64,000 bases of DNA from Hyphomonadaceae bacterium (GTDB lineage Bacteria > Pseudomonadota > Alphaproteobacteria > Caulobacterales > Aquidulcibacteraceae). A program made the position numbers and the translations under genes. Below, piece by piece: positions 1 through 15,712 of the stretch. The stretch lies in assembly GCA_016791425.1 (NCBI GenBank), contig JAEUMQ010000007.1:62001-126000 (forward strand). Reading direction: 5' to 3'. The notes beneath the pieces were generated by a model. It did no database searches. It had not been told where the DNA came from and saw only the letters and a program-made list of their open reading frames with translations. Numbering within the stretch: position 1 is the first letter of the stretch; each line of letters starts with the position of its first letter.

Positions 1-1105
1 TCGTGAACGCCTCGAATTCCTGGTCGAGATAATCGGCGGCCTTCTCCAGCATGCCCGAGAGGTCGCCCGCGTTCTCGCCCGAAGCGGCCATGTACGCCAC
101 CATCGGCGGAATGAGCCCGCTGCGGCGCATCGCTGCCGACAACGGCTCGCCCTCCTCGATCCGCGCGCCCATCTCGCCGATCGCCTTCGCCACGACCCGA
201 TTATCGACCGCCTCGCGCCCCTGGCGCACGCTGTCGAGCACCGTGAGCCCCGACGCCGTCAGCGTCGAGACCGCGCGCGCAAACCGGCTCGCGTTCACCG
301 CCGCCGTCCACCGCCCGATGATCGGCGCGCGCAGCATGAACGCGTCGATCGCGAAGCGCACCGGCTCCCGCTTCATGAGCACACGGAGGAAATATCCTCC
401 CCCAAGCAGCGCCGCGAGCAGGATCGCCCAATAGGTCGCCAGGAAGGTGGATGTGCCGATCAGGATCTGCGTCAGCAGCGGCAGCCGCGCCTGGAAGCTC
501 TTGAACTGCTCCGCCAGGCTCGGCACCACGAAGATCATCAGGCAGGTGACGACCGTGATCGCCACCAGGCTGAGCGCGGCGGGATAGACCATCGCGGTCG
601 TGACCTTCGAGCGCAGCGCCTCCGCGCGCGCCAGGTAATCGCCCATCCGCACAAGCACCGGCCCAAGCTGGCCGGAGCGCTCCCCGCCCGCGACCGCGCT
701 GCGATAAAGCCCCGGGAAGCTCTTCGGGTGCCGTCCCAGCGCTTCGGCGAGCCGCGCGCCTTCGACCACCGCGACCTGCACGTCCGCCATCACCCGCTTC
801 GCGGTCGGCGTCTCCTGTTGCGCTGCGATCATGCCGAGCGCTTCGTCCACCGGCACCGCGGCCTCGACCAGCGTCGAGAGCTGCCGCGTCACCAGCAGCC
901 GCTCCTTGTGCGTGAGCGTGGCGCGCACCCGGCCGCGCTTCGGCTCGGCCGTTTCGACCGCCGCCGCGCCCGCGCTTGCGATCTGCACCGGCAGGAGATT
1001 GCGCTTCTGCAGGCCCTCGCGCGCGGCGAACTCGCTCGCCGCGTCGATCCCGCCGCTGCGTTTCTTGCCCGCGGTGTCGAGCGCGACATAATTGTAGCGC
1101 GGCAT
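1..1105 (-). CDS. gspF: Type II secretion inner-membrane protein GspF (3' end missing)
   Basis: The reverse strand is open from the left edge to an ATG at 1105. The protein begins MPRYNYVALDTAGKKRSG, the usual GspF N-terminus (a short beta segment before the first cytoplasmic helical domain). Hydrophobic segments near 'AALSLVAITVVTCLMIFVV' and 'TYWAILLAALLGGGYF' separate two T2SSF repeats; the second ends at the window edge after an 'SGENAGDLSGML' motif typical of the family. GspF is the polytopic platform protein that couples the GspE ATPase to pseudopilus assembly. Its ATG overlaps the gspE stop by one base (TGATG), so it is translationally coupled and last of the visible C-D-E-F order. The C-terminus and any pseudopilin genes lie outside the window. 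Confidence 0.93.
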   Translation of the reverse strand, partial: MPRYNYVALDTAGKKRSGGIDAASEFAAREGLQKRNLLPVQIASAGAAAVETAEPKRGRVRATLTHKERLLVTRQLSTLVEAAVPVDEALGMIAAQQETPTAKRVMADVQVAVVEGARLAEALGRHPKSFPGLYRSAVAGGERSGQLGPVLVRMGDYLARAEALRSKVTTAMVYPAALSLVAITVVTCLMIFVVPSLAEQFKSFQARLPLLTQILIGTSTFLATYWAILLAALLGGGYFLRVLMKREPVRFAIDAFMLRAPIIGRWTAAVNASRFARAVSTLTASGLTVLDSVRQGREAVDNRVVAKAIGEMGARIEEGEPLSAAMRRSGLIPPMVAYMAASGENAGDLSGMLEKAADYLDQEFEAFT

Positions 1106-2610
1106 CAGATCATCGCTTCGGCGCTGGTGAGCCGGAGCACGTCGCTGAGCGAGGTCACGCCCGCCGCCGCGCAGCGCAGGCCGCTCTTCAGCAGCGGATC
1201 GGAGCCGCGGAACGCGTGCGCCGCCATCTCTTGCTCGGTCGCGTTCGCATGAATGAGCCGCCGGATCTCGTCGTCGATGGTCACGAACTCGTAGAGCCCG
1301 ATGCGCCCGACATAGCCCGAATTGCTGCAGCGCGAGCACCCGACCGCCTCGAACACCCGCGCATTGTGTGCGCCAACCGTCGCCAGCATCCGCGTCTCCG
1401 CCGGGCCCAGCACCGCCGGTCGCTTGCATTCGTTGCAGAGCCGCCGCGCCAGCCGCTGCGCCGCGATCGCGCGCAGCGTCGAGGCAAGGAGATAAGGCGC
1501 CACGCCCATGTCCTTCAGCCGCGTGATCGCCGAGACCGCATCATTGGTGTGCACCGTGGAGAAGACGAGGTGCCCCGTGAGGCTCGCCTGCACCGCGATC
1601 TGCGCGGTCTCCACGTCGCGGATTTCCCCGACCATCACGATGTCCGGGTCTTGCCGCAGGATCGCCCTGAGGCCCGCCGCGAACGTCATGCCGATCTTCG
1701 GATTGACCTGGGTCTGCCCGATCCCCTCCACCGCGTACTCGATCGGATCCTCCACCGTGAGGATGTTCCGTGTACGGTCGTTCAGCAGATTGAGCGCGGC
1801 GTAGAGCGTCGTCGTCTTGCCCGATCCGGTCGGCCCGGTGACGAGGATCACGCCGTTCGGATAGGCCAGCGCCTGCTTGAACTTCTCGTGGATGTCGCTG
1901 GACATGCCCAAGGCGTCGAGCTGCCTGAGCCCCTGATCCTTGTCGAGCAGCCGCATCACCACCCGCTCGCCGTGCCGTGAGGGCAGCGTCGAGATCCGCA
2001 CATCGACGCCCCGTCCGCCGAGCGATAGCGACACCCGCCCGTCCTGCGGCAGCCGCTTCTCGGCGATATCGAGCCGCGCCATCACCTTGATCCGCGACAC
2101 CAACCTGGCTTTCGCCTGCGACGGAACCTGCAGGATCTCCCGCAAGACGCCGTCGATCCGCAGGCGGATGATCACGGCGTTCTCGTACGGCTCCACATGG
2201 ATGTCCGATGCGCCCTGGCTGATCGCTTCAGAGATGAGCCCGTTGATCAGCCGGATGACCGGCGCGTCGTCTGCGGTGTCGAGCAGGTCCGCGGTTGCGC
2301 CCGCGCCTTCCGCCAGCGCATCGAGCGCGCCTTCGGCGTGGAATTCCTGCGCGATCGACCGCGCCGCCTCGCCGCTCACCGCATAGCGCTGCGACAGGGC
2401 CTCGTCGAAGCCTTGCCCATTGAGCTCCACCACCTCGAACGGCCCGCCGAGCAGGCGGCGCACTTCCATCAGCGCCATCGGATCGGCGCCGGCCCGCACC
2501 CCGACGCGCCACGGCGCGGCGTCGGTCAACAGCACCACGCCCTTCGACTTGGCGAAGGCGTATTCGATGCTCGGCGGCGCACTGCGGGCGGAAACGACTG
2601 GCTCTGTCAT
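1105..2610 (-). CDS. gspE: Type II secretion ATPase GspE
   Basis: 501 residues, full length for GspE/PilB-family hexameric secretion ATPases that power pseudopilus assembly at the cytoplasmic face. Walker A GPTGSGKTTT lies at about 259-268. An Asp box ('IVMVGEIRDVETAQ'), a His box ('TGHLVFSTVHTNDA') and two CxxC pairs (CNEC ... CSRC) forming the tetracysteine Zn-binding module follow in the usual order. The N-terminal domain is compact. It follows gspD by 22 bases and overlaps gspF, so it belongs to one operon. PilB is the main alternative, excluded by the secretin and GspC neighbours. Confidence 0.96.
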   Translation of the reverse strand: MTEPVVSARSAPPSIEYAFAKSKGVVLLTDAAPWRVGVRAGADPMALMEVRRLLGGPFEVVELNGQGFDEALSQRYAVSGEAARSIAQEFHAEGALDALAEGAGATADLLDTADDAPVIRLINGLISEAISQGASDIHVEPYENAVIIRLRIDGVLREILQVPSQAKARLVSRIKVMARLDIAEKRLPQDGRVSLSLGGRGVDVRISTLPSRHGERVVMRLLDKDQGLRQLDALGMSSDIHEKFKQALAYPNGVILVTGPTGSGKTTTLYAALNLLNDRTRNILTVEDPIEYAVEGIGQTQVNPKIGMTFAAGLRAILRQDPDIVMVGEIRDVETAQIAVQASLTGHLVFSTVHTNDAVSAITRLKDMGVAPYLLASTLRAIAAQRLARRLCNECKRPAVLGPAETRMLATVGAHNARVFEAVGCSRCSNSGYVGRIGLYEFVTIDDEIRRLIHANATEQEMAAHAFRGSDPLLKSGLRCAAAGVTSLSDVLRLTSAEAMI

Positions 2611-2632: not shown

Positions 2633-5098
2633 TTATCTCCCCGCGCTGGCGGTTTGTCTCGTCGGCGCCCAAAGTTCGCTTCTGGGCTCGCTTCGCATTT
2701 GCTCCGTCGTCGGCATCCAGCCGCCATATTGCGAGAGATCGTCGTCGCTTTCGGCCGGCGGCTGCGGCAGTCGCGGCGCCACCCGCTGCCGCGGCCGCCG
2801 CTCTGGACGCGCGATTTCGATCGTCGCGACCGCATGCGTGACGCCGCCCTCGCCCGCCGTCGCCTGCGGCCGCCAGGCCGCCTCCTGGACGGCCGGCGCG
2901 CGGGCCAGCATCGCCGCCTCGCGCCGCTGCGATTCCGCCGTCGGGGTCCAGAGCGGCGAATCCGAGCGCGGTGTCGAGGCCGGGCGCCAGAAGGGCTCGG
3001 CGTCCGCGCGCCGCGGCTGCGGCGGCGCGATCGGGACCGGCGCGGCTTCCCCCTGCGAGCGCTGTTGCGGACGCGGCGCTTCCGCGCGCGGCTCCGGCAG
3101 CGGCGCGGGCGGCGCCTGCGGCGCCCGCATCATCTCCTGCACCTGCGTGTCGATACTGCGGTCGAGTCCCCCGCGATTGCGGAGCAATTCATATTGCCGC
3201 TCGGTGACCGCGCCGGCCTGCTCGGCCGTGTTCACCAGGCTCGGCCGCAGGAACACCATGAGATTGGTGCGCTTGCGCGTCCGCCCTTCGCTGCTGAACA
3301 GCCGCCCGACAAGCGGAAGCTTGCGCAGCACCGGAATGCCGGAATTCGAACGCTGCACATCCTCCTGGATGAGCCCGCCGAGCACGATGATCTGGCCGGC
3401 GTCCACCTGCACGACCGTCTCGATCGCCCGGCGATTGGTGATGAGGTCGGTGGAATCGTCGATGATCTGCCCGAAGATGCTCGACACTTCCTGCTTGATC
3501 GCCAGCCGGATCGCACCGCCTTCGCTCACCTGCGGGCGCACTTCGAGCTGCACGCCCACATCCTCGCGCCGCACGGTGCGGAACGGGTTGGTGTTCGAAT
3601 CCGACAGCGTCTCGCCGGTCGTGACCGGAATCTGCTGCCCGACCAGGATCGACGCCGTCTCGTTGTCGAGCGTCATCACCTTCGGCGTCGAAAGGACGTT
3701 GGATTCCTGGTCTTCGGCGAGCGCGTTGAGGATGAGACCGAACATGGTCCCGTCGCCGTTCTGCCCCGCGACCCCGCCGAGCGCGCCATTGTAATTGACC
3801 AGCGAGCTGACCGCCGCGCGCTGCAGGTCCTGCAGCGCCGGATTGTCCCTGTTGCCGTTGCTGGTCGAGCCGAGCAGCGCGCCCGTCACGGCAAGCAGGT
3901 TGGGCGCGCTGTTGGCGAAGCTCGTCGATAGGAACGGGACGGCGCTGTCCTCGTTGCCCGAGACGATGAATTGCAGCCCGAGCTCCTTCGCGGCGGTGTC
4001 CGACACCTCCACGATGATGGCCTCGACCATCACCTGCTGGCGCCGGATGTCGAGCGATTGCACGACATTGGCCAGCGATTCCTGCGTCTCGCGGTCGGCG
4101 CTGATGATGAGCGCGTTCGTCGCCCGGTGCGCCGCGATGTTCGCCCGCCGGTTCGCTCCCCCGGCGCCTTCCGCCGGCCCGGTCATCGAGCTGGAGATCT
4201 GCTGCAGGATCGGGACGAGGTCTTCGGCCACCGCGTACTTGAGCGGAATGACCTTCACGCCGGCCTGCATGTCGGCGTTGGAATCGAGCTGCGTGAGCAG
4301 CGGGATGATCTGGTCGAGCGTGCGCCGGTCTCCGCGCAGCACGAGCGTGTTGGAAGACGCGATCGGTGTCGCGGTGACGAGCGCCCGTCCCTGCGCGTCT
4401 CCGGACGCCTGCGACAGCGAGGTCGCCACCCGCGCCATTTCCGCCGCCGAAGTGTTCCGTAGACGGAGCGTTCGATAGCTTGACGTGTCCTGGTCGAGGT
4501 TCGACACGATCTGCCGCAGCCGCGTGATCGTCGAGCCGTAATCGACCACCACCACTGAATTGCCGCGCGCGTTCGCCGTCACCTGGCCGCGCTGCGACAG
4601 CATGGGCCGCAGCGCCGAAGCGACGCTCTCCGCGTCGGCGAACCTCAGCCGGAAAACCTGCGAAACATAGCGGTCCGCGCTCGGACCGCCTTCGGGCGAA
4701 GGCTCCCGCGCCGCCACCTCGTCCGGCACGATGCGGTAGGCGCCCTGCGCGGTCGGCACCGCGACATAGCCGTGCACGCGGAGCGTGGAGAGGAAGACGT
4801 CGAAAAGCTCGCTCTCCGACAGCGCCTGGTGCGCCATCACCGTGACGCGGCCGCTGACCCGCGGATCGACGATGAACGTCCGCCCGGTGGCGTTGGAGAC
4901 GTCCTCGATGAACGCGCGGATATCGACTTCGCGCATCGCGGTCGCGCCGCCGCGCTGTCCGCCCTGCGGCTGCGGCGCCTGCTGCGCGAAGGCCGTGGAG
5001 ACCGCCGCCGCGGAAAGCCCGCAGGCAAGCGCCAGCGCCAAGCGTGTGCGGCGTGGAGTCCGGCTCATGCCGCCATTTTTCATCTGGGCGAGTTTCAT
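2633..5098 (-). CDS. gspD: Type II secretion outer-membrane secretin GspD
   Basis: 821 residues. It forms the multimeric outer-membrane channel through which folded T2SS substrates leave. A signal sequence follows MSRTPRRTRLALALACGL. N0-N3 periplasmic repeats come next, then the secretin core with 'VGQQIPVTTGE' and a C-terminal 'SGIPVLRKLPLVGRLFSSEGRTRKRTNLMVFLRPSLV' signature. After about residue 620 there is an unusually long Pro/Ala/Arg-rich tail of roughly 200 residues with no recognised domain, possibly for pilotin or cell-envelope contact. The ATG at 5098 overlaps the gspC stop (ATGA); an internal ATG at 5068 gives a more standard signal peptide and is a credible alternative. Confidence 0.95.
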   Translation of the reverse strand: MKLAQMKNGGMSRTPRRTRLALALACGLSAAAVSTAFAQQAPQPQGGQRGGATAMREVDIRAFIEDVSNATGRTFIVDPRVSGRVTVMAHQALSESELFDVFLSTLRVHGYVAVPTAQGAYRIVPDEVAAREPSPEGGPSADRYVSQVFRLRFADAESVASALRPMLSQRGQVTANARGNSVVVVDYGSTITRLRQIVSNLDQDTSSYRTLRLRNTSAAEMARVATSLSQASGDAQGRALVTATPIASSNTLVLRGDRRTLDQIIPLLTQLDSNADMQAGVKVIPLKYAVAEDLVPILQQISSSMTGPAEGAGGANRRANIAAHRATNALIISADRETQESLANVVQSLDIRRQQVMVEAIIVEVSDTAAKELGLQFIVSGNEDSAVPFLSTSFANSAPNLLAVTGALLGSTSNGNRDNPALQDLQRAAVSSLVNYNGALGGVAGQNGDGTMFGLILNALAEDQESNVLSTPKVMTLDNETASILVGQQIPVTTGETLSDSNTNPFRTVRREDVGVQLEVRPQVSEGGAIRLAIKQEVSSIFGQIIDDSTDLITNRRAIETVVQVDAGQIIVLGGLIQEDVQRSNSGIPVLRKLPLVGRLFSSEGRTRKRTNLMVFLRPSLVNTAEQAGAVTERQYELLRNRGGLDRSIDTQVQEMMRAPQAPPAPLPEPRAEAPRPQQRSQGEAAPVPIAPPQPRRADAEPFWRPASTPRSDSPLWTPTAESQRREAAMLARAPAVQEAAWRPQATAGEGGVTHAVATIEIARPERRPRQRVAPRLPQPPAESDDDLSQYGGWMPTTEQMRSEPRSELWAPTRQTASAGR

Positions 5099-6141
5099 GC
5101 AGGCCCGTCGGCGGCGAGCCTGAGCGTCACGCGCTCGCCCCCGCGCATGACGGAAAGCTGCACATCGCCGGTCGTCGCGGCGCGCATGGCGTCCATCAGC
5201 TGGTCGGGACCGGCGCCGTTCACGTCGAGGATGAAGTCGCCCTTGGCGACGCCGGCCGTCTCGGCCGCCGCCGGCGGCGACGCGACCGACCAGCCGTCAT
5301 GCCCATCGATGCTCACCGGAACCGCGAGGGTCGTCGGCAGCCAGTCGAGGCTCTCCGGGGTCACCACCGTCGGCGCCACCGGCTCGAAATACGTCGTTTG
5401 TTGCGGCTCGGCCTCAAGCGCCTCTGCTGCTGGCGCGCGCGCCGCGGCCCGCATGGCAGGCGCCGGGGCAATCTCTTCCACCTCCGCGATCGCCGGCGGC
5501 CCGACCGGCTCGCCGTCAAGCGCCTCGGCCGGCGGCGCGGCCTCTTCGGCCTCCTCGTCCTGGTACTCGGCAGGCGCGTCGGAATATTCCAATTGATCGA
5601 CGCCCATCAGCGCCCGCGCGAACGAGAAGCTCGGCCGCTCCTCCAGCGTCAGCTGCGCCTGCCCGCCGTCGTGTGCGAGCAGCACGAAATCGGGCGTCAC
5701 CTCGGCCAGCGTCACCCCGGCCATGATCTCCTGGCCGATCAGGAATGCGTGCTGGGCGCCGTCTTCCAGGGTGAGGATGCAGCCGCTGCGCGCCGGATCG
5801 TCCGCCACTCGGACGCCGGCCAGCTTGACGTTGGCCAACAGCGCCGAGGCCGCATTCGAGGTCGATCCATCGAGCGCCGGCGAGAACGGCGAGCCGACTG
5901 CTTCTGCCTGCGGGGCGATCGCGACGACATCCGGCCCCGGCGTTTCCGGCGATGCATAGGACACGTGCGGCGTCAGCGCATTCCAGCCGGCCTGCGCAGT
6001 TCCCAGCGCGACCGCCGCAAGCAGCAGCGCCTCGACGCCGGGGCGCAGCGCCCCAAGCGCCCGCTCGCGCAGGTCCGCGCGTTCCGGAAGGCGCGCGCCG
6101 GACGCCAAAGCCCGTTTCAGCTTGCTCATGAACGTCACCAT
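5095..6141 (-). CDS. gspC: Type II secretion protein GspC with C-terminal PDZ-like domain
   Basis: 348 residues. A short cytoplasmic N-terminus is followed by one membrane helix ('ALLLAAVALGTAQAGW', near 35-50), a periplasmic homology region ('GVRVADDPARSGCILTLEDGAQHAFLIGQEIMAGVTLAEV'), an acidic Ala/Pro/Glu-rich linker, and a C-terminal PDZ-like domain ('AETAGVAKGDFILDVNGAGPDQL'). GspC links the inner-membrane platform to the secretin and helps select substrates. It is the first T2SS gene of the run and starts about 155 bases after the TonB receptor. ATG 6141 has a GGAAGG site five bases upstream; ATG 6129 is the alternative. Confidence 0.85.
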   Translation of the reverse strand: MVTFMSKLKRALASGARLPERADLRERALGALRPGVEALLLAAVALGTAQAGWNALTPHVSYASPETPGPDVVAIAPQAEAVGSPFSPALDGSTSNAASALLANVKLAGVRVADDPARSGCILTLEDGAQHAFLIGQEIMAGVTLAEVTPDFVLLAHDGGQAQLTLEERPSFSFARALMGVDQLEYSDAPAEYQDEEAEEAAPPAEALDGEPVGPPAIAEVEEIAPAPAMRAAARAPAAEALEAEPQQTTYFEPVAPTVVTPESLDWLPTTLAVPVSIDGHDGWSVASPPAAAETAGVAKGDFILDVNGAGPDQLMDAMRAATTGDVQLSVMRGGERVTLRLAADGPA

Positions 6142-6295
6142 CGCCGCCTTCCGCCCAGACCCCGCGCGGCGGCGACTTCCTCTATAGCCAAAACATTACG
6201 CGCCACAATTGCCCTTGTCATTTCAGAACCGTCAGAAAGCGCCGCGTTCGCGTGCATCCACAGGCTTTTGGCGACGCGGCTTTGTGACAAGAAGT

Positions 6296-8950
6296 TCAGA
6301 ACTTCGCAGTCAGGCTCGCCGAGAAGCTCCGTCCACGTGCGTAGGTGTTGAAGTCCGTCTCTCCGAGCGTGGGCGACAGCTGGTATTCCTTGTGATCGAT
6401 GTCCGCGAGATTGCGCCCGCTGAGCCCCAGCGAGATCGTCGAGCCGCCCACCGCGAAATCCTGACGGAACGTCAGATCGACGTTCACGCCCGGATCCTCG
6501 TAGACCGTCGGCAGCCCCCCGAGGCCCCGCCGCGAGATCCGCTCCGAGACATAGCCGACCAGCAGCGTCATCTGCGTCGCGTCGGTCTGGAACCCGAACT
6601 GCACGTTCCCGATGTGCTTGGGCGTGCCCTGCAGCTGCGAACCGTCGAGCTGGAATTGCGACGCCGGCACGAAGGTGAGGTTGGGCAGCACCGTGGGGTT
6701 CACCACCAGCGCGCCCGCGTCGGCCTGAACTTCGGAGAACGTGTACGTGTAGTTCACCCCGAAGATCCATTCCGCGCCGCCGAGGAACGGCAGCTCGAAC
6801 GGCATCGCGAACGTCGTGCGGTACTCCGCCTCCGCGCCATAGAGCACCGCCTCCGGCGCATTGAGGAAGCGGGTCTTCACCCGGTCCGCCTTGATCAGCA
6901 CTTCCTCGATCGGATTCTCGATCTGCTTGTAGAACACGCCGCCCGTGATGAACTGGCCGCGCCCGAAATACCATTCGAGCCGCGCGTCGTAGTTCTGGAA
7001 CTCGCTGTCGACGAGGTACGGATTGCCCTCATAGATGCGGTCCGTCTCCGGATCGACATAGGGCGTGAACGCGAGCTCGCGGAATTGCGGGCGCGCGATG
7101 GTCTGCGAATAGCCGAGCCGGAGCTGCAGGTCCTCCGCGAAATTCCAGGTGAGCGTGGCCGCCGGCAGCCAATAGGTGTTGGCCAGCGTCACCGGCGCCG
7201 CGAACGGCGTCTCCCCGAAGCGATTCCCCGTGCGCACGAGCTGGCTGGCGTCCTCGTAGCGCACGCCGACGGAAGCGCGCACCAGCGGCAGGATGTCGAT
7301 ATCCGCCGCGACATAGGCCGCCATGTTCGTCAGCCGCGCCTTGTAGGCGTCGTCGCGCCCGGTGAATTCCGTGATCTCGAACCGGAACGGATCGATATTG
7401 TCCGGCGAGAAGAGGAAGTCGGGCCGCGCCTTCAGCACGTCGCTCGGGATCTGCGTGATCGCGTTGCGGAACGCGAACGACAGCAGCGAATAGTCCCGCA
7501 CCGAATTCGAATACGCCGCGCCCGCTGAGAGCACCAGGTCGCGCTCCTCCGAGAGCGGGATCGTGTAGGCGCCGTCCACGCCCCCGGAGAGCACTTCATC
7601 CGTCAGCTCCGAGAAGCGCGTGATGTTGGCGTCCGCCGTGCCCGGATACGACGCCGCGCCATTGACCACGAAATATGTGATCCCGCGCTCATAGGGCGCA
7701 TCGCGCGTTGATTGCGCGAACGCCGTGCGCCAATCGATTTCCAGCGCCCCGAACGTGTGCTCGCCGGACAATTGCACCGACGCGAGCTGCCTCTCGTACC
7801 AGCTCGTCGTTTCGTTGTGGATCGAGGTCGCGCAAGCAGGATCGACGTCCACATCGCACCCGTCCTCGAGCTCGGTGTCCTTGGTCGAGCTGCGCACCAG
7901 CAACCCCGTGAGCGCGATCTCGTGATCCTCGGTGGAATAGCTCGCGCTGCCGAACAGGTTGAACACGATGTCCCACGCGCTCGACACCGCATCGAAATCG
8001 GTCTGCAGCGCATCCCCTTGAACGCCGATCCGCTTCGCGCGCCGCGTCCGCCAGGAGCTGTCGTAGCCGATGACGCCGACCAGGCCGACATTGGCCCCGT
8101 TGTCGAGATCGAGCGACGTTCCCATCGTCGCCTCGCCCTCGAAGTCCGGATCGAGAGGGCCGCTCTGCACCACCGTCAGCGGCGAATTGGTCAGGCTCTC
8201 GCCGATCGTCTCGAGCTGCGCGCCGGTGAAGTTCGTCGAATTGATCCGCCGCCCTGTGCCGATCGCCGCCGCCAGCGGCCCCGGGATGTCGCGCGCGCCG
8301 TCCGCGATGCCTGACCAATCGCTGTCTTCGCCATAATAGAAGACGCCGCGCTTGTCGGTGCTCTCCGTATTGCCGTCCGTTCCGACTTTCAGCGTCAGGA
8401 ACGGCGCGCTCGGCAGCCTGAGCGTGCGCAGATCGATGATGCCGCCGCCGAACTCGCCCGGATAATTCGGCGAGAACGTCTTCTGCACCGTCGCCCCGTC
8501 GAGGATGTTCGACGGAAAGAGATCGAGCGGCACTTGCCGCCGCAGCGGCTCGGGGCTCGGCAGCGGCGAGCCGTTGAGCAGCGCCGAGGAATAGCGGTCC
8601 CCAAGCCCCCGCACATAGACGAACCGCCCCTGCACCACCGAAAGCCCGGTGAGCCGGGTCAGCGCCAGCGCCGCGTTGTCATCCCCCTGCCGCGAAAGAT
8701 CCTCCGCGGAGAGGAAAGTCGCGACTTCGGAGGTCTGCTGCATCGGCTGCGGGATGAACCGCCCGAGCACGGTGACTTCGCCGGAAGCGTCGATCGCGGC
8801 GTCATCGTCCGCAGGCGGAACATCGGCGGGCGGCGCCGCCTCCTGCGTGGCCGCGGGCGCGGCCGCGTCTTGCGCGTAGGCCGCGGTCGGCATCACCAGC
8901 ATCGTGGTGAGCAGCAGCAGCTTCTGAAAGGTGAGCGGAAAGAGTTTCAT
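6296..8950 (-). CDS. TonB-dependent outer-membrane receptor
   Basis: 884 residues from ATG 8950, chosen because it begins a clean signal peptide (MKLFPLTFQKLLLLTTML ... AYAQ); the longer reading frame upstream is Arg/Pro-rich and lacks protein character. A plug domain ('EVTVLGRFIPQPMQQTSEVATF ... VYVRGLGDRYSSALLNG ... NYPGEFGGGIIDLRT') precedes a 22-strand-type barrel ending in a terminal Phe (SASLTAKF). The family takes up ligands across the outer membrane using TonB energy. It sits between the secreted lipoprotein and gspC on the same strand. In Caulobacter the ElpS lipoprotein, a TonB receptor and gsp genes are, to my recollection, neighbours in the same way, which suggests a phosphate-source uptake role; the ligand is not visible here. 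Confidence 0.93.
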   Translation of the reverse strand: MKLFPLTFQKLLLLTTMLVMPTAAYAQDAAAPAATQEAAPPADVPPADDDAAIDASGEVTVLGRFIPQPMQQTSEVATFLSAEDLSRQGDDNAALALTRLTGLSVVQGRFVYVRGLGDRYSSALLNGSPLPSPEPLRRQVPLDLFPSNILDGATVQKTFSPNYPGEFGGGIIDLRTLRLPSAPFLTLKVGTDGNTESTDKRGVFYYGEDSDWSGIADGARDIPGPLAAAIGTGRRINSTNFTGAQLETIGESLTNSPLTVVQSGPLDPDFEGEATMGTSLDLDNGANVGLVGVIGYDSSWRTRRAKRIGVQGDALQTDFDAVSSAWDIVFNLFGSASYSTEDHEIALTGLLVRSSTKDTELEDGCDVDVDPACATSIHNETTSWYERQLASVQLSGEHTFGALEIDWRTAFAQSTRDAPYERGITYFVVNGAASYPGTADANITRFSELTDEVLSGGVDGAYTIPLSEERDLVLSAGAAYSNSVRDYSLLSFAFRNAITQIPSDVLKARPDFLFSPDNIDPFRFEITEFTGRDDAYKARLTNMAAYVAADIDILPLVRASVGVRYEDASQLVRTGNRFGETPFAAPVTLANTYWLPAATLTWNFAEDLQLRLGYSQTIARPQFRELAFTPYVDPETDRIYEGNPYLVDSEFQNYDARLEWYFGRGQFITGGVFYKQIENPIEEVLIKADRVKTRFLNAPEAVLYGAEAEYRTTFAMPFELPFLGGAEWIFGVNYTYTFSEVQADAGALVVNPTVLPNLTFVPASQFQLDGSQLQGTPKHIGNVQFGFQTDATQMTLLVGYVSERISRRGLGGLPTVYEDPGVNVDLTFRQDFAVGGSTISLGLSGRNLADIDHKEYQLSPTLGETDFNTYARGRSFSASLTAKF

Positions 8951-8986
8951 CTGCGGGAACCTTGAAAGGGCGGGCGGAGGGAAACG

Positions 8987-9011
8987 GGGCGGCGGATTTC
9001 TCCCGCCGCCC
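8987..9011 (-). terminator. Hairpin between lipoprotein and TonB receptor genes
   Basis: A perfect 9-bp GC stem (GGGCGGCGG / CCGCCGCCC, 7-base loop) begins ten bases after the lipoprotein stop at 9021. Reading the minus strand, it is followed by CGTTT, a weak T tract. It could partly terminate or stabilise the 3' end, giving high lipoprotein and lower receptor expression from one promoter. Function is inferred. Confidence 0.5.
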
Positions 9012-9020
9012 GCTTCACGA

Positions 9021-11846
9021 TCAGCAGGTCGAGCCGGACGCGAGGCCGCAGCTCCAGGACTGCCACCAGGTGTCGCTCGCATCCCGCACCGCGCCGATCC
9101 AGGTGGTCGCCGTGAAGAACGCATCCACCGTGTTCGGATTGATCGCGGTGCGCGCCGCTTCATTGGCGCCGTTGATGAACGAGCCGGTCAGCGTGTTCAC
9201 CGTGGCGGTCGAGTTGTTGGTCCCCGCATTGACGATCGCCTGCGCCGAAGCGCCGAGCGCGCCGGAGCAATCGAGCAGCGTGGAGTCCATCTGCGGCGCG
9301 GGCGAAGTGTTGGCCGTGTCTGCGAAGAGACAGACCGACGAGCCCGTCACCACGCCGTTGAGGTACCGCCCCGAGCTGCCCGGCGCGCCGCCGGTATTGT
9401 TCAGTTCGATGCCGCGGATGGCGGCGGCGGAGCTGTTCTGCGCCAGCCCGATCATCGTGAAGTTCGCGATCGTCGGATTGGTGTTGAGCGTGCCGCCGGA
9501 GCTGGAGACCACGCGGTTGGACGCCTCCACCAGCCGGTCGGGACCGCCCGTGAGCGCCGTCTGCCGGATGATCAGGAACTGCACCTTGCCGGTCCAGCCC
9601 TCGTCGTAATCGAGGCTGTCGTCGAGCGCGCCGGTGATCACGATGTTCTTCATGTTCACCGCGCCGCCGAAGATCTCGATCCCGTCGTCGCCGGAATTGT
9701 GCACTTGGACGTTCTGGATCACCGTGCCGGAGCCGACGCCGCCGAGGGTGAGACCGTTGAGGTCGTCGCCCGCCGCCGCCGAAGTCAGGAACGCGCCCGG
9801 ATAGCGGATCTGCAGGTTGTTGAGCCGGCCGCTATTGTCGGCGGCCGTCGCGCCGCCATAGAGCGCCTGGTTGCCGGTGGCCGCCGTCACGCCTTCGATG
9901 GCGTTCTGGCAATCCACGGTTCCTTGCGTCACCGCCGTGTTGCAGCCGCGGATCGGCGCCCGGCCGAGCACGATGAGGCCGCCCCATTCGCGGTTGATGG
10001 CGTTGGTGTCGCTCCGCGACGGGTTCGCCACATCGCCGACCGAGGTCATGATCACCGGCTGCGCGGTCGTGCCGTTCACGAAGATCTGCGAGCCGCGGTT
10101 CACGATGATCATGTCTCCGGGGTTGGTCCCTGCGATCGTCACGCCCGGATCGATCGTCAGCGAAGCCGCTGTGCCGCCGGTTCCGGCCGCGCCGCGATCG
10201 ACGCCGACATCCACCCGCCCTTGCAGCTGATAGAGATTGCCTTGCGTGAGTCGCACGCTGGCCGGGATCGAGCCCGATCCGATCACGCCCGCGATGAGGC
10301 AGCGCGGCATCGGCGTGGACGCGCCGGACACCGTCAGCGGCGTTCCTTGCGTGGTGCCGGCCGGACAGCCCGTCGCCGTGAAGAGCTGCAGCGTCCACCC
10401 GCTCGCCCAGTTCGTCGTCGCCGTCTCGGTCGGCGAGAACGCGCCGACATAATTGGCCGTCGAGAAGAACGAGTTGACGCTCGTCGGATTCACCGCCGTG
10501 CGCGCGATCTCGTTCGAGCCGGGCATGAGGCCGTTGAGCGTCGTAGGCGTCGCGGTCGAATTGTTCGCGCCCGCATTGATGATCGTCGTCGCGACCGAAC
10601 CGTACGCGCCGGCGCAGTCGAACAGCGTCGAATCGAACCGCGGCGCCGGGCTGCCGTTCGAGTTCTGCGCCGAGAGGCAGGTCGTCGAGCCTGTCACGAC
10701 GCCGTTCAGAAAGCGCCCTGAGCTGCCCGGCGTGCCCCCGGTATTGTTGAGATCGATGCCGAGGATGTTGGCGTTCGAGCTGTTCGTCGGCAGGCCGACC
10801 ATCGTGAAGTTAGAGATCGTCGGATTGGTCTGGACTGTGCCCGGCGCGGTGCTCGCGACGACGCGGTTCGAGGCCTCCACGAGCCGATCAGGCCCGCCCG
10901 TGAGCGCCGTCTGGCGGATCACCAGGAACTGCACTGCGCCTTGCCAGCCCTCGTCGTAGTCCAGGCTGTCGTCGAGCGCGCCGGTGATCGCGACATACTT
11001 CATGTTCACCGCGCCGCCGAACACCTCGATGCCGTCGTCGCCGGAATTGTGCACCTGCACATGGTCGATCGTCGTGCCCGAGCCCACGCCGCCGAGCGAA
11101 ATGCCGTTGAGGTCGTCGCCCGCCGCCGCCGATGTCAGGAATGCGCCCGGATAGCGCACCTGCACGTATTGCAGCGTGCCGGAATTGTCGCTCGAGACCG
11201 CGCCGCCATAGAGCGCTTGCGCGCCCGTCGCCGCGGTAACGCCTTCGATCGCGTTCTGGCAATCGACGCTGCCCTGCGCGACTGCGGTGTTGCAGCCGCG
11301 GATCGGCGCGCGCCCGAGCAGGATGAGCCCGCCCCATTGCCGCGACGCGGTCGCCGGATCGTTCTGCCCAAGCACGTCTTCGCGGCTGGTGAAGATGATC
11401 GGCGCGCTCGCCGTGCCGACCGCCTGGATGCGCGAGCCGCGATTGATGATCAGCATGTCGCCCGGCTCATCGCCATAGAGCGTCACGCCGGCGGCGATCG
11501 ACAGCGTCGCCGCCTGCCCGCCTGAGCCGGCCGCGCCGACATCCTGGCCGACGTCCACCCGTCCGTTGAGCCGATAGACGACCCCGGTCACCGCCGGCAG
11601 CGAGAGGTTCGTCAGGATCGCGCCCGAGAGCTGACACACCGTCTGCGAGCCGAGCGCGCCCTGGTTCGTGGTGCCCGACGGGCAGCTCGCCGATCCCCCG
11701 CCGCTCGATCCGCCGCCGCTTGATCCGCCGCCGCCCGGCGCCGTGCCAGGATTTGTCGCCCCCGGCGACGCGATCTCCGAACCGCTCGAACAAGCCGCCA
11801 GAAGCAGCGCGACAAAGGCTGCGCGCCAGGAACGCGTATTTCTCAT
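9021..11846 (-). CDS. Large internally duplicated secreted lipoprotein (ElpS-like)
   Basis: 941 residues from ATG 11846, where MRNTRSWRAAFVALLLAACSSG gives a lipobox with Cys19. A Gly/Ser linker follows, then two copies of a ~430-residue module. Matching segments include 'PGDMLIINRGS/PGDMIIVNRGS', 'WGGLILLGRAPIRGCNTAV', 'IEGVTAATG', 'VQVHNSGDDGIEVFGGAVNMK' and 'ITGALDDSLDYDEGW', typical of a right-handed parallel beta-helix. It is encoded directly before a TonB receptor and T2SS genes, with a Pho box upstream. This matches my recollection of Caulobacter ElpS, an extracellular lipoprotein secreted by T2SS on phosphate starvation. Activity (surface hydrolase, adhesin or phosphate-ester binding) is not readable from the sequence. 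Confidence 0.85.
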   Translation of the reverse strand: MRNTRSWRAAFVALLLAACSSGSEIASPGATNPGTAPGGGGSSGGGSSGGGSASCPSGTTNQGALGSQTVCQLSGAILTNLSLPAVTGVVYRLNGRVDVGQDVGAAGSGGQAATLSIAAGVTLYGDEPGDMLIINRGSRIQAVGTASAPIIFTSREDVLGQNDPATASRQWGGLILLGRAPIRGCNTAVAQGSVDCQNAIEGVTAATGAQALYGGAVSSDNSGTLQYVQVRYPGAFLTSAAAGDDLNGISLGGVGSGTTIDHVQVHNSGDDGIEVFGGAVNMKYVAITGALDDSLDYDEGWQGAVQFLVIRQTALTGGPDRLVEASNRVVASTAPGTVQTNPTISNFTMVGLPTNSSNANILGIDLNNTGGTPGSSGRFLNGVVTGSTTCLSAQNSNGSPAPRFDSTLFDCAGAYGSVATTIINAGANNSTATPTTLNGLMPGSNEIARTAVNPTSVNSFFSTANYVGAFSPTETATTNWASGWTLQLFTATGCPAGTTQGTPLTVSGASTPMPRCLIAGVIGSGSIPASVRLTQGNLYQLQGRVDVGVDRGAAGTGGTAASLTIDPGVTIAGTNPGDMIIVNRGSQIFVNGTTAQPVIMTSVGDVANPSRSDTNAINREWGGLIVLGRAPIRGCNTAVTQGTVDCQNAIEGVTAATGNQALYGGATAADNSGRLNNLQIRYPGAFLTSAAAGDDLNGLTLGGVGSGTVIQNVQVHNSGDDGIEIFGGAVNMKNIVITGALDDSLDYDEGWTGKVQFLIIRQTALTGGPDRLVEASNRVVSSSGGTLNTNPTIANFTMIGLAQNSSAAAIRGIELNNTGGAPGSSGRYLNGVVTGSSVCLFADTANTSPAPQMDSTLLDCSGALGASAQAIVNAGTNNSTATVNTLTGSFINGANEAARTAINPNTVDAFFTATTWIGAVRDASDTWWQSWSCGLASGSTC

Positions 11847-11940
11847 CAGGAGTGCCCCCACTCGGAACGTCGATGGGAGCGGGGTAACGGCCGAACGCGA
11901 CGCTGCTGTATCGCGAGCGTGAAAGTCTCTTGTCGATTGG

Positions 11941-11958
11941 ATGACGCTAGGATGACAG
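11941..11958 (-). promoter_or_regulatory. Pho box (PhoB site) upstream of the secreted lipoprotein
   Basis: On the minus strand the sequence is CTGTCATCCTAGCGTCAT: two 7-base half-sites separated by four bases. The first matches the PhoB half-site CTGTCAT exactly; the second (GCGTCAT) has two changes. It lies about 95 bases before the lipoprotein ATG (11846) in the right orientation. It predicts induction of lipoprotein, receptor and perhaps T2SS genes on phosphate starvation. Confidence 0.75.
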
Positions 11959-11978
11959 CCCAATGGGCCGGCGCGGCC

Positions 11979-12176
11979 TTAGCGCAGCGCGCGCATCTCT
12001 CCCGCGATGACCGCGACGAGGCCCGCTTCGCCCGGCGCTGGGTCGAAAGGCGCCTCCCCCTCATCGGCCGCGGCGATCTCTTCGGCCCAGTCGGGCAGGA
12101 ACGCGGCCTCCGCGGCCTCCGAGAACGATCTCGGCGCGGCCGTGATCACGCTTCTGGCGCGCACACGGGTCGTCAT
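11979..12176 (-). CDS. Possible 65-residue protein with its own Pho box
   Basis: ATG 12176 to TAA 11979. The product, MTTRVRARSVITAAPRSFSE ... LVAVIAGEMRALR, has a basic N-terminus and an acidic middle (FLPDWAEEIAAADEGEAPFD), no signal peptide and no transmembrane segment. I do not recognise it. It ends 20 bases before the lipoprotein Pho box, on the same strand, and a second Pho box lies about 80 bases before its start, so it would be the first gene of a phosphate-starvation unit. The ribosome site is weak (AGGG). A competing plus-strand frame exists but has no comparable context. Coding status is uncertain. Confidence 0.45.
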   Translation of the reverse strand: MTTRVRARSVITAAPRSFSEAAEAAFLPDWAEEIAAADEGEAPFDPAPGEAGLVAVIAGEMRALR

Positions 12177-12254
12177 GAGCCCTGCCCCCCAAGGCAGCTT
12201 CCAAGCTTACGACTCTGTCATAGAAGCGCAACGCAACGTTTTCGCTGCGCTTCG

Positions 12255-12272
12255 ATGACGTCTGGATGACGC
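12255..12272 (-). promoter_or_regulatory. Second Pho-box-like site
   Basis: Minus-strand GCGTCATCCAGACGTCAT repeats the 7-4-7 spacing and the GCGTCAT half-site of the box at 11941-11958. It precedes the possible 65-residue ORF (start 12176) by about 80 bases. A further lone CTGTCAT half lies on the plus strand at 12215-12221, and an 8-bp hairpin GAAGCGCA/TGCGCTTC (12223-12253) lies between the box and the ORF. Confidence 0.6.
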
Positions 12273-12288
12273 CCGCTCGGCGGCCCAA

Positions 12289-12432
12289 GCCCGCCTCGAT
12301 CGGGCTTAAGGAAAAATTAGCCTGTTTCGTCCACGAAACGCCCAGCGGGGAAAGTCAGGAGCGGCCGGGGCGGGCGAAGGAAAACCCAGGTGAGTCTCAC
12401 CTGGAAAAATCGGCCCCTTGGGCCGGATTTTT
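12289..12432 (+). terminator. Divergent intergenic region with operator-like palindrome and terminator-type hairpins
   Basis: This stretch before the speF leader holds three dyads. A perfect GTTTCGT-CC-ACGAAAC palindrome is at 12324-12339 (a possible operator). A perfect 9-bp hairpin CCAGGTGAG-T-CTCACCTGG is at 12386-12404. Directly after it, AAAAATCGGCCC-CTT-GGGCCGGATTTTT (12405-12432, one bulge) is a GC stem flanked by A and T tracts on both sides, so it could stop transcription in either direction. No protein is supported here. The AT-rich patch near 12310-12320 may hold a promoter. Confidence 0.55.
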
Positions 12433-12435
12433 CCT

Positions 12436-12650
12436 TTACATCCCGGACGAACCTTCCTATCTGCGCGCGTACCGGCGGACCTGGAAACAGCGTCCACTAA
12501 CGCCCCCTCGGCCCAGGCCACTACGGGGAACCGATCTGAAGGCGAGGCTCCCAGCTTCGCATGAAGAAACGGCCCCCGGCGTAAGCTCCCAAGGGCGGAC
12601 CTGACATTTAGCATGTCCGACTAACGCCGGCCTGGGTTCATAGCGTCGAG
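12436..12650 (+). ncRNA. speF-type leader RNA (ornithine decarboxylase 5' regulatory element)
   Basis: It is placed directly before a fold-III ornithine decarboxylase, the genomic context of the speF RNA motif known in alphaproteobacteria. It contains two copies of one hairpin: GGCGGAC (12474-12480) pairing with GTC...CGCC (12492-12504), and GGCGGAC (12594-12600) pairing with GTCC...CGCC (12615-12628). Each has CTAA just before its closing CGCC. A long-range stem CCCAGGCC (12512-12519) / GGCCTGGG (12629-12636) encloses the second copy. TTCC/GGAA bases flank the first. The family assignment rests on context and on my memory of conserved segments such as GGACCTGGAAAC; a covariance-model search would settle it. 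Confidence 0.75.
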
Positions 12651-14626: not shown

Positions 14627-15712
14627 ATGGCCCAAGCGCCCGCGAAGAAAGCAAAGCAACCTGCGCCGAAGAAGCGCGACAACAGGAAGGCCGAGCTCCT
14701 CTCGGCCCCCGTCGAGCACATCGACATCAAATCGTTCGACGCCCGCCCGCTCGTCGAAGCCTGGGGCAAGATGAGCTTCACCTCGCGCGACGCCGCACGC
14801 GCCGCCGAGATCCTAAACATGGCGCTGGCGGACAAAGCCTGCTCCACCTGGCTCACCCTCGCCGGCTCCACCAGCGCCGGCGGCTGCATGCATGTGTGGC
14901 GCGACATGGTCGAGAACGACATGGTCGACGCCATCGTCGCCACCGGCGCCTCGATCATCGACATGGATTTCCTCGAAGCGCTCGGCTTCAAGCACTACCA
15001 GGCGAAGGAAATCCCCGACGACAACACGCTGCGCGCGCTCTACATCGACCGCATCTACGACACCTATATCGACGAGGAGGAGCTGCAGGCCGTCGACATG
15101 ACGATCAACAAGATCGCCGAGTCGCTGCCGCCAAAGCCGTATTCCTCGCGCGCCTTCATCCACGAGCTCGGGCGTTGGCTCGCCGACGGCAACGCCCGCA
15201 AGAAAGGCTCGCTCATCGAGACCTGCTACAGGAAAGGCGTGCCGATCTTCTGCCCAGCCTTCAGCGATTCCTCCGCCGGCTTTGGCCTCGTGAAGCACCA
15301 GGTCGATCGCGCGAAGGCGAAGAAGCCCTACATGACGATCGATTCCGTCGCCGACTTCCGCGAGCTCACCGAGATCAAGCTCGCGGCCGGCACCACCGCG
15401 CTCTTCATGATCGGCGGCGGCGTGCCGAAGAACTTCGCGCAGGACACCGTCGTCTGCGCCGAGATCCTCGGCCACGAGGACGTCGAGATGCACAAATACG
15501 CCGTGCAGATCACGGTTGCAGACGTGCGCGACGGCGCCTGCTCGTCGTCAACGCTCAAGGAGGCCGCCTCCTGGGGCAAGGTGGAAACGGTGCACGAGCA
15601 GATGGTCTTCGCCGAGGCCGGCAGCGTCGTCCCGATCATCGTCTCCGACGCCTACCACCGCGGCCACTGGAAAAAGCGCAAGGCCCGCAACTGGGCCAAG
15701 CTCTTCGACTGA
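14627..15712 (+). CDS. Deoxyhypusine-synthase-like enzyme (probable homospermidine/spermidine-type polyamine synthase)
   Basis: 361 residues. Bacterial members of this family do not modify eIF5A; characterised ones transfer an aminobutyl group between polyamines, for example to make homospermidine from putrescine or spermidine with NAD. The NAD-binding core is seen in 'TLAGSTSAGGCMHVWRDMVENDMVDAIVATGASIIDMD' and 'LFMIGGGVPKNFAQD', and the catalytic lysine is in EAASWGKVE (Lys318). A lysine-rich N-terminal tail of about 20 residues precedes the domain. A GGAAAGAG site supports ATG 14627. With the decarboxylase it forms a putrescine-to-triamine pathway. The exact product needs assay. Confidence 0.88.
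   Translation: MAQAPAKKAKQPAPKKRDNRKAELLSAPVEHIDIKSFDARPLVEAWGKMSFTSRDAARAAEILNMALADKACSTWLTLAGSTSAGGCMHVWRDMVENDMVDAIVATGASIIDMDFLEALGFKHYQAKEIPDDNTLRALYIDRIYDTYIDEEELQAVDMTINKIAESLPPKPYSSRAFIHELGRWLADGNARKKGSLIETCYRKGVPIFCPAFSDSSAGFGLVKHQVDRAKAKKPYMTIDSVADFRELTEIKLAAGTTALFMIGGGVPKNFAQDTVVCAEILGHEDVEMHKYAVQITVADVRDGACSSSTLKEAASWGKVETVHEQMVFAEAGSVVPIIVSDAYHRGHWKKRKARNWAKLFD

Follow-up and report, generated by a model that had tools for sequence, protein, structure and literature searches.

An ElpS-type lipoprotein and TonB-dependent receptor gene pair behind Pho boxes in a Caulobacterales genome: a candidate outer-membrane route for phosphate compounds

In Caulobacter crescentus, Le Blastier et al. 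described the gene order elpS (CC0170), a TonB-dependent receptor (TBDR) gene CC0171 and gspC-N (PMC2996285). ElpS is lipidated and produced in phosphate starvation, and stalk extracts contain both ElpS and CC0171 (PMC2996285). The lipoprotein is found on the surface even in a gspC-N deletion; the type II secretion system (T2SS) is required only for its release, which occurs by proteolysis, probably by a T2SS-secreted protease (PMC2996285). Deletion of elpS left alkaline phosphatase activity unchanged and overexpression raised the activity in the medium, while refolded or immunoprecipitated ElpS had no alkaline phosphatase activity (PMC2996285). The receptor gene was reported as constitutive in expression, and its deletion did not affect ElpS production; after a shift to poor medium the intracellular phosphate of C. 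crescentus was unchanged (PMC2996285). Induction of the elpS promoter is PhoB-dependent (PMC5172544), and the T2SS lies within the PhoB regulon (PMC11208175).

Here we compare this cluster with a locus of a Hyphomonadaceae bacterium, located in a window of 64,000 nucleotides, which is the whole stretch of DNA analysed. The gene for a 941-residue lipoprotein is followed by those for a TBDR and gspC-D-E-F, all on the minus strand and in the order given by the original prediction, and Pfam and NCBIfam confirmed every gene of the array except the lipoprotein. The features are as follows.

12255-12270, minus strand: distal Pho box GTCAT-N6-GTCAT (GTCATCCAGACGTCAT), a second 11-bp repeat and one of the seven exact sites of the genome
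11979-12176, minus strand: 65-aa ORF between the two Pho boxes, with coding-like codon bias
11941-11958, minus strand: proximal Pho box CTGTCAT-CCTA-GCGTCAT, ending 94 bp 5' of the elpS ATG
9021-11846, minus strand: elpS-like two-module lipoprotein, 941 aa, with lipobox LLAAC (Cys19) and a Gly/Ser-rich linker
10368-11675, minus strand: elpS module 1 (aa 58-493), a predicted right-handed beta-helix (pLDDT 84.8, pTM 0.89)
9024-10367, minus strand: elpS module 2 (aa 494-941), 65% identical to module 1, with all invariant residues present
6296-8956, minus strand: TBDR paired with elpS, with Plug and beta-barrel domains
5095-6141, minus strand: gspC, with a T2SSC match
2633-5098, minus strand: gspD secretin, TIGR02517 above cut-off
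1105-2610, minus strand: gspE ATPase, TIGR02533 above cut-off
1-1111, minus strand: gspF, which continues past the window edge

We prefer the ATG at 11846 as elpS start because a lipobox follows it, whereas a start at TTG 11963 would enclose a Pho box in the gene. For the 65-aa ORF we found no Pfam match and no relative among the fetched loci. The adjoining 20 kb beyond the window hold gspG, H, I, J, K, L, M and N, then gspO (prepilin peptidase, peptidase A24) on the opposite strand, pstS-pstC-pstA and a proline dehydrogenase gene. The T2SS core is complete, with gspC-F inside the window and gspG-N and the prepilin peptidase outside it, and the T2SS cluster thus lies between elpS-TBDR and the phosphate transporter. 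A second secretin and GspE-like ATPase set is present in the same genome (G000 C19:139465-143610, L001); this ATPase scores below the T2SS equivalog cut-off, pointing to another type II or pilus-like system.

The locus shares with the C. crescentus ElpS (CC0170/CCNA_00169) cluster the lipoprotein-TBDR-gspC-N-gspO order, with the lipoprotein gene directly followed by the TBDR gene and gspC-N, along with the lipobox, the Pho-regulated promoter and the phosphate-starvation context (PMC2996285, PMC5172544). It differs in having pstSCA directly after the T2SS and in the size of the lipoprotein, as the secreted Caulobacter ElpS band of about 50 kDa fits one module whereas the protein in the window has two modules and 941 aa. 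Gene order, lipobox and Pho boxes agree with the proposed membership in the ElpS-type phosphate-regulated cluster, and it is well supported that the locus is a relative of the published one, with two modules in its lipoprotein and a link to pst.

The lipoprotein matched no Pfam, NCBIfam or PHROGs family, and no phosphatase domain (PhoA, PhoD, PhoX and others) was recognised in it by Pfam or NCBIfam. It is predicted to be a lipoprotein by the lipobox LLAAC with Cys19, after which the Gly/Ser-rich linker extends as far as residue 55. The duplication proposed earlier is evident, the two modules sharing 65% amino acid identity over 435 positions. Each is 44-48% identical to single-module proteins of the order (482-516 aa), whose size fits the 50-kDa ElpS and whose gene neighbours are alike; CC0170 lay outside the alignment. 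The full-length structure model was of low confidence (pLDDT 65.9) and a one-module model was used in its place (pLDDT 84.8, pTM 0.89). The comparison with beta-helix models that had been proposed as a check gave a predicted right-handed beta-helix for each module; the best alignments of this model to known structures were to such proteins (Z about 21). No single beta-helix family or PDB chain was outstanding, Foldseek gave no module match below E 0.001, and a PDB sequence search found no relative of the lipoprotein.

An alignment of 57 proteobacterial and two Bacteroidota modules revealed the invariant residues D270, D271, E274, D292, D296, E201, E324, Q306, N346 and N381, with D or E at position D293. 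In the same modules no His was invariant, and Arg was near-invariant at one position only. The invariant acidic residues suggest a cation-binding or catalytic acidic site, not direct phosphate binding. The predicted fold resembles overall that of many polysaccharide lyases, hydrolases and epimerases (Z about 18-21); both modules carry D270, D271, E274, D292, D293, D296 and E324, and the Bacteroidota relatives carry nearly all of them. The lipoprotein could hence be chiefly an enzyme, a beta-helix hydrolase or lyase, both surface-bound and shed, that acts on a polymer to liberate phosphate or phosphorylated pieces for import by the receptor, and the increased alkaline phosphatase activity in the medium on elpS overexpression (PMC2996285) could be read in the same way. 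However, the fold match is generic, we found no sequence relationship to these enzymes and recognised no catalytic set, and refolded or immunoprecipitated ElpS is without alkaline phosphatase activity, as elpS deletion is without effect (PMC2996285). We regard a chiefly enzymatic role as unlikely.

It was further proposed that the second module could be a separate functional site. This division of labour is not borne out, as both modules of the lipoprotein in the window keep the complete invariant set and modules cluster within proteins. Sister modules within one protein had strong support in G185, G145, L090, L091, G104 and G095, separate groups of first and second modules occur in the window's own family and others, and the module tree forces at least 12 changes. 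Single-module forms, seen in family f3 and G076, cluster with one another. Stretches of 102-130 bp at 96% identity or more between modules (G185, L085 and G064) fit gene conversion, with repeated duplication as the alternative; in the window's protein the stretch of such identity is just 34 bp. The two modules evolve in concert and are probably equivalent. Stops were flagged within some relatives, and these look like alignments overrunning the gene end.

The Pho box at 11941-11958 is present ahead of the lipoprotein gene as originally read. A Pho-box scan of the window gave four matches at three or fewer mismatches against 1.67 expected, which was equalled by 9 of 100 shuffles and is weak by itself. 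In the 4.36 Mb genome, exact GTCATN6GTCAT occurs only seven times and two of these sites are in the 430 bp ahead of the elpS-like gene; given this density, two in 430 bp would be expected by chance with an estimated probability of about 1e-7. Sites with at most one mismatch number 94 genome-wide, close to the estimate from base composition, and one-mismatch sites were hence counted only given fitting position and strand. Such sites precede pstS by 62 bp, a phoR-like gene by 57 bp and pstB by 37 bp, which suggests that the GTCAT-N6-GTCAT pattern is used by the organism's own Pho genes. It should be noted that phoR_proteo was the best-scoring model for the phoR-like gene but fell below cut-off, while PhoB and PstB were above theirs. 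A control with the backwards pattern (9 sites) was an unfair baseline due to base composition.

Expectation-maximisation on 33 orthologous upstream regions, with no Pho box supplied, returned TGTCACaaAACTGTCA with an 11-bp period. Its log-likelihood was 182 against 70 +/- 3 in twelve shuffled sets, a value that is only indicative as some of the upstream regions are of common ancestry. An antisense run of the motif finder was rejected as control because it recovers the reverse complement, and the shuffles were substituted. In other species the Pho boxes are often degenerate and exact matches scarce; of 35 non-redundant regions, 18 had their best sense-strand site between -135 and -95, versus 11 for the opposite strand. 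Judged by sequence, the two exact Pho boxes and the conserved motif mark a predicted PhoB-dependent promoter, and as in the Pho regulon GTCAY-N6-GTCAY repeats precede elpS, pstS, the phoR-like gene and pstB of this genome, with no conflicting feature. Elsewhere in the genome, two exact Pho boxes overlap in tandem (G000 C19:309623-309649, L095) upstream of a 228-aa ORF (L095:9779-10465). Read by eye, this ORF is 2-oxoglutarate/Fe(II) oxygenase-like, and it is a candidate extra Pho-regulon gene.

To see which parts of the cluster are conserved together we set the window's genome beside 20 others, drawn from four further families of the order, giving 21 neighbourhoods. The TBDR gene directly follows elpS in all 21, and gsp genes adjoin in 16. 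Across the phylum the module was found in 47 of 299 genomes, and about 18 of 20 elpS neighbourhoods had an adjacent TBDR, on either side; the evidence beyond Proteobacteria is three loci. Nine genomes have elpS-TBDR without GspE above the equivalog cut-off, namely eight of the sister genus g2 (one of them a single contig) and the 87%-complete G014, and in four of the nine (G004, G008, G011 and G014) GspD matches were likewise below cut-off only. The pair is thus separable from the T2SS, and the comparison suggests that lipoprotein and TBDR are the actual unit, with the T2SS as an optional partner. In genus g2 (L074, L076 and L080) an apparent VirB-type T4SS gene set was seen beside elpS-TBDR, and VirB-like T4SS genes are likewise near elpS in family f9 genomes (L178 and L179).

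These data bear on the claim that the adjoining T2SS has the lipoprotein as its main cargo, which was made with ElpS described as T2SS-secreted. The latter stands as far as release is concerned, as the presence of ElpS in the medium requires the T2SS in Caulobacter (PMC2996285), and the adjacency of gspC-N in 16 of the 21 neighbourhoods also favours a cargo role. It does not stand for arrival at the surface, since ElpS is on the surface in the gspC-N deletion and is freed by proteolysis (PMC2996285). Further, the pair occurs in the nine genomes where GspE, and in four of them GspD, was not detected above cut-off, and the C-terminal end of a Bacteroidota relative (L039) resembles, read by eye, a T9SS sorting domain. 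For the organism of the window the Caulobacter data and the genome comparison are indirect, but both speak against a need for the T2SS in reaching the surface. A lipoprotein that is the main T2SS cargo is very improbable to us.

The link to phosphate acquisition is supported, with pstSCA after the T2SS here and pst or pho genes near the pair in several lineages. In 17 of the 95 genomes having both genes, from 12 genera, pstS is within 30 kb of elpS, where about 1.9 would be expected at random (Poisson 2e-11, uncorrected for phylogeny); the linkage is missing in the other 78. The placement varies, pst genes being found after the T2SS (the window's genome, family f4), directly after the TBDR (G014, L035) and immediately before elpS (G459 and, judged by distance, G278 and G465). 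The order in G459, a gammaproteobacterium-like genome, is phoB-phoR-pstS-elpS-TBDR-DUF3450-ExbB-like-ExbB-ExbD-TonB-TPR, with phoB, phoR and pstS all above cut-offs. In G379 elpS-TBDR is adjoined by phoB-phoR, and in a Bacteroidota MAG TBDR-elpS is about 4 kb from pstS and pstC. The f38-labelled loci of the phylum-wide set appear from their gene content to be of marine gammaproteobacteria.

The discoverers proposed that ElpS activates a separate secreted phosphatase, which would leave the receptor as a bystander or sensor. This would account for the increased supernatant phosphatase activity on overexpression of a protein that is itself inactive (PMC2996285). The recurrent neighbour in the alphaproteobacterial, gammaproteobacterial and Bacteroidota loci is, however, the receptor and not a phosphatase gene, and signal sensing by the receptor is unlikely as its deletion leaves ElpS production unaffected (PMC2996285). 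We give activation of a phosphatase very little credence.

We favour, with moderate confidence, an outer-membrane system under PhoB control, which would capture phosphate or phosphate compounds, bring them in and supply Pst. In low phosphate PhoB would switch on elpS via the Pho boxes, and the two-module beta-helix lipoprotein would be displayed at the cell surface, partnered with its dedicated TBDR. There it would bind, and possibly process, phosphate or a phosphate-containing compound, which the receptor would take in on TonB energy before PstSCAB carries phosphate over the inner membrane. The optional T2SS would export phosphorus-freeing hydrolases and, as in Caulobacter, a lipoprotein-shedding protease, and would not be the means of placing the lipoprotein on the surface. 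We infer the physical pairing of lipoprotein and receptor, the substrate and its import; it is plausible that the receptor takes up the compound handled by the lipoprotein, and import as a hypothesis has good support from the sequence comparisons. The conserved polar residues argue against direct phosphate capture, as they are acidic and form no obvious phosphate site, and a metal or a different substrate would be needed. The constitutive expression reported for the C. crescentus receptor gene and the unchanged intracellular phosphate after a shift to poor medium (PMC2996285) also count against this reading, as does the missing pst linkage in 78 of the 95 genomes.

SusC/SusD-type pairs likewise join the gene of a surface lipoprotein to that of a TBDR, a comparison that concerns working principle only. 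The SusD fold is helical, whereas the module here had no Pfam match to a SusD or TPR helical fold and is predicted as an all-beta, right-handed helix, and the receptor in the window resembles the TonB-Xanth-Caul subfamily, with a score below cut-off.

The question addressed by such a system is how phosphorus passes through the outer membrane in bacteria without phosphate porins. C. crescentus has no general or substrate-specific porins, and OmpW, its one known channel, is cation-selective (PMC4659666), so that anions need another route; active uptake of phosphate compounds across the outer membrane would make sense there. We speculate, as a tentative and rather doubtful generalisation, that beta-helix lipoproteins of the ElpS type and the receptors paired with them are TonB-dependent importers of phosphate or phosphate esters, a class that would be widespread and is so far unnamed. 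Such importers would take the place of phosphate porins in the porin-poor Caulobacterales as well as in Bacteroidota and marine gammaproteobacteria, and T2SS and T9SS would be accessories that can replace each other. The Caulobacter cluster and its PhoB control were known; new is the reassignment of elpS-TBDR as the unit and of the neighbouring T2SS as a separable accessory. Gene pairing and pst/pho linkage give one testable pair, lipoprotein and receptor, in many bacteria, and the comparison suggests why attempts to class ElpS as a phosphatase or as a substrate of the T2SS have not succeeded.

Upstream of the cluster, on the plus strand at 12472-12637, a leader of about 165 nt lies ahead of an ornithine/DAP decarboxylase gene (start 12694). 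Two blocks of 40-50 nt, near-invariant between genera and each with GGCGGACCTG...GTCC.ACTAACGCC, flank a variable hairpin. Of 348 genomes of the order, 39 have the pattern, almost always as a single copy and all within the host's own family, and it is just 5' of the decarboxylase gene in all eight loci examined. Rfam gave no match to the leader even at E 1. The leader may be divergently related, or analogous, to the alphaproteobacterial speF element, which has been described ahead of genes for this class of enzyme (PMC1273637). A deoxyhypusine synthase-family gene (14627-15709, plus strand) is located 3' of the decarboxylase gene and a GNAT acetyltransferase gene, making up a polyamine-related set.
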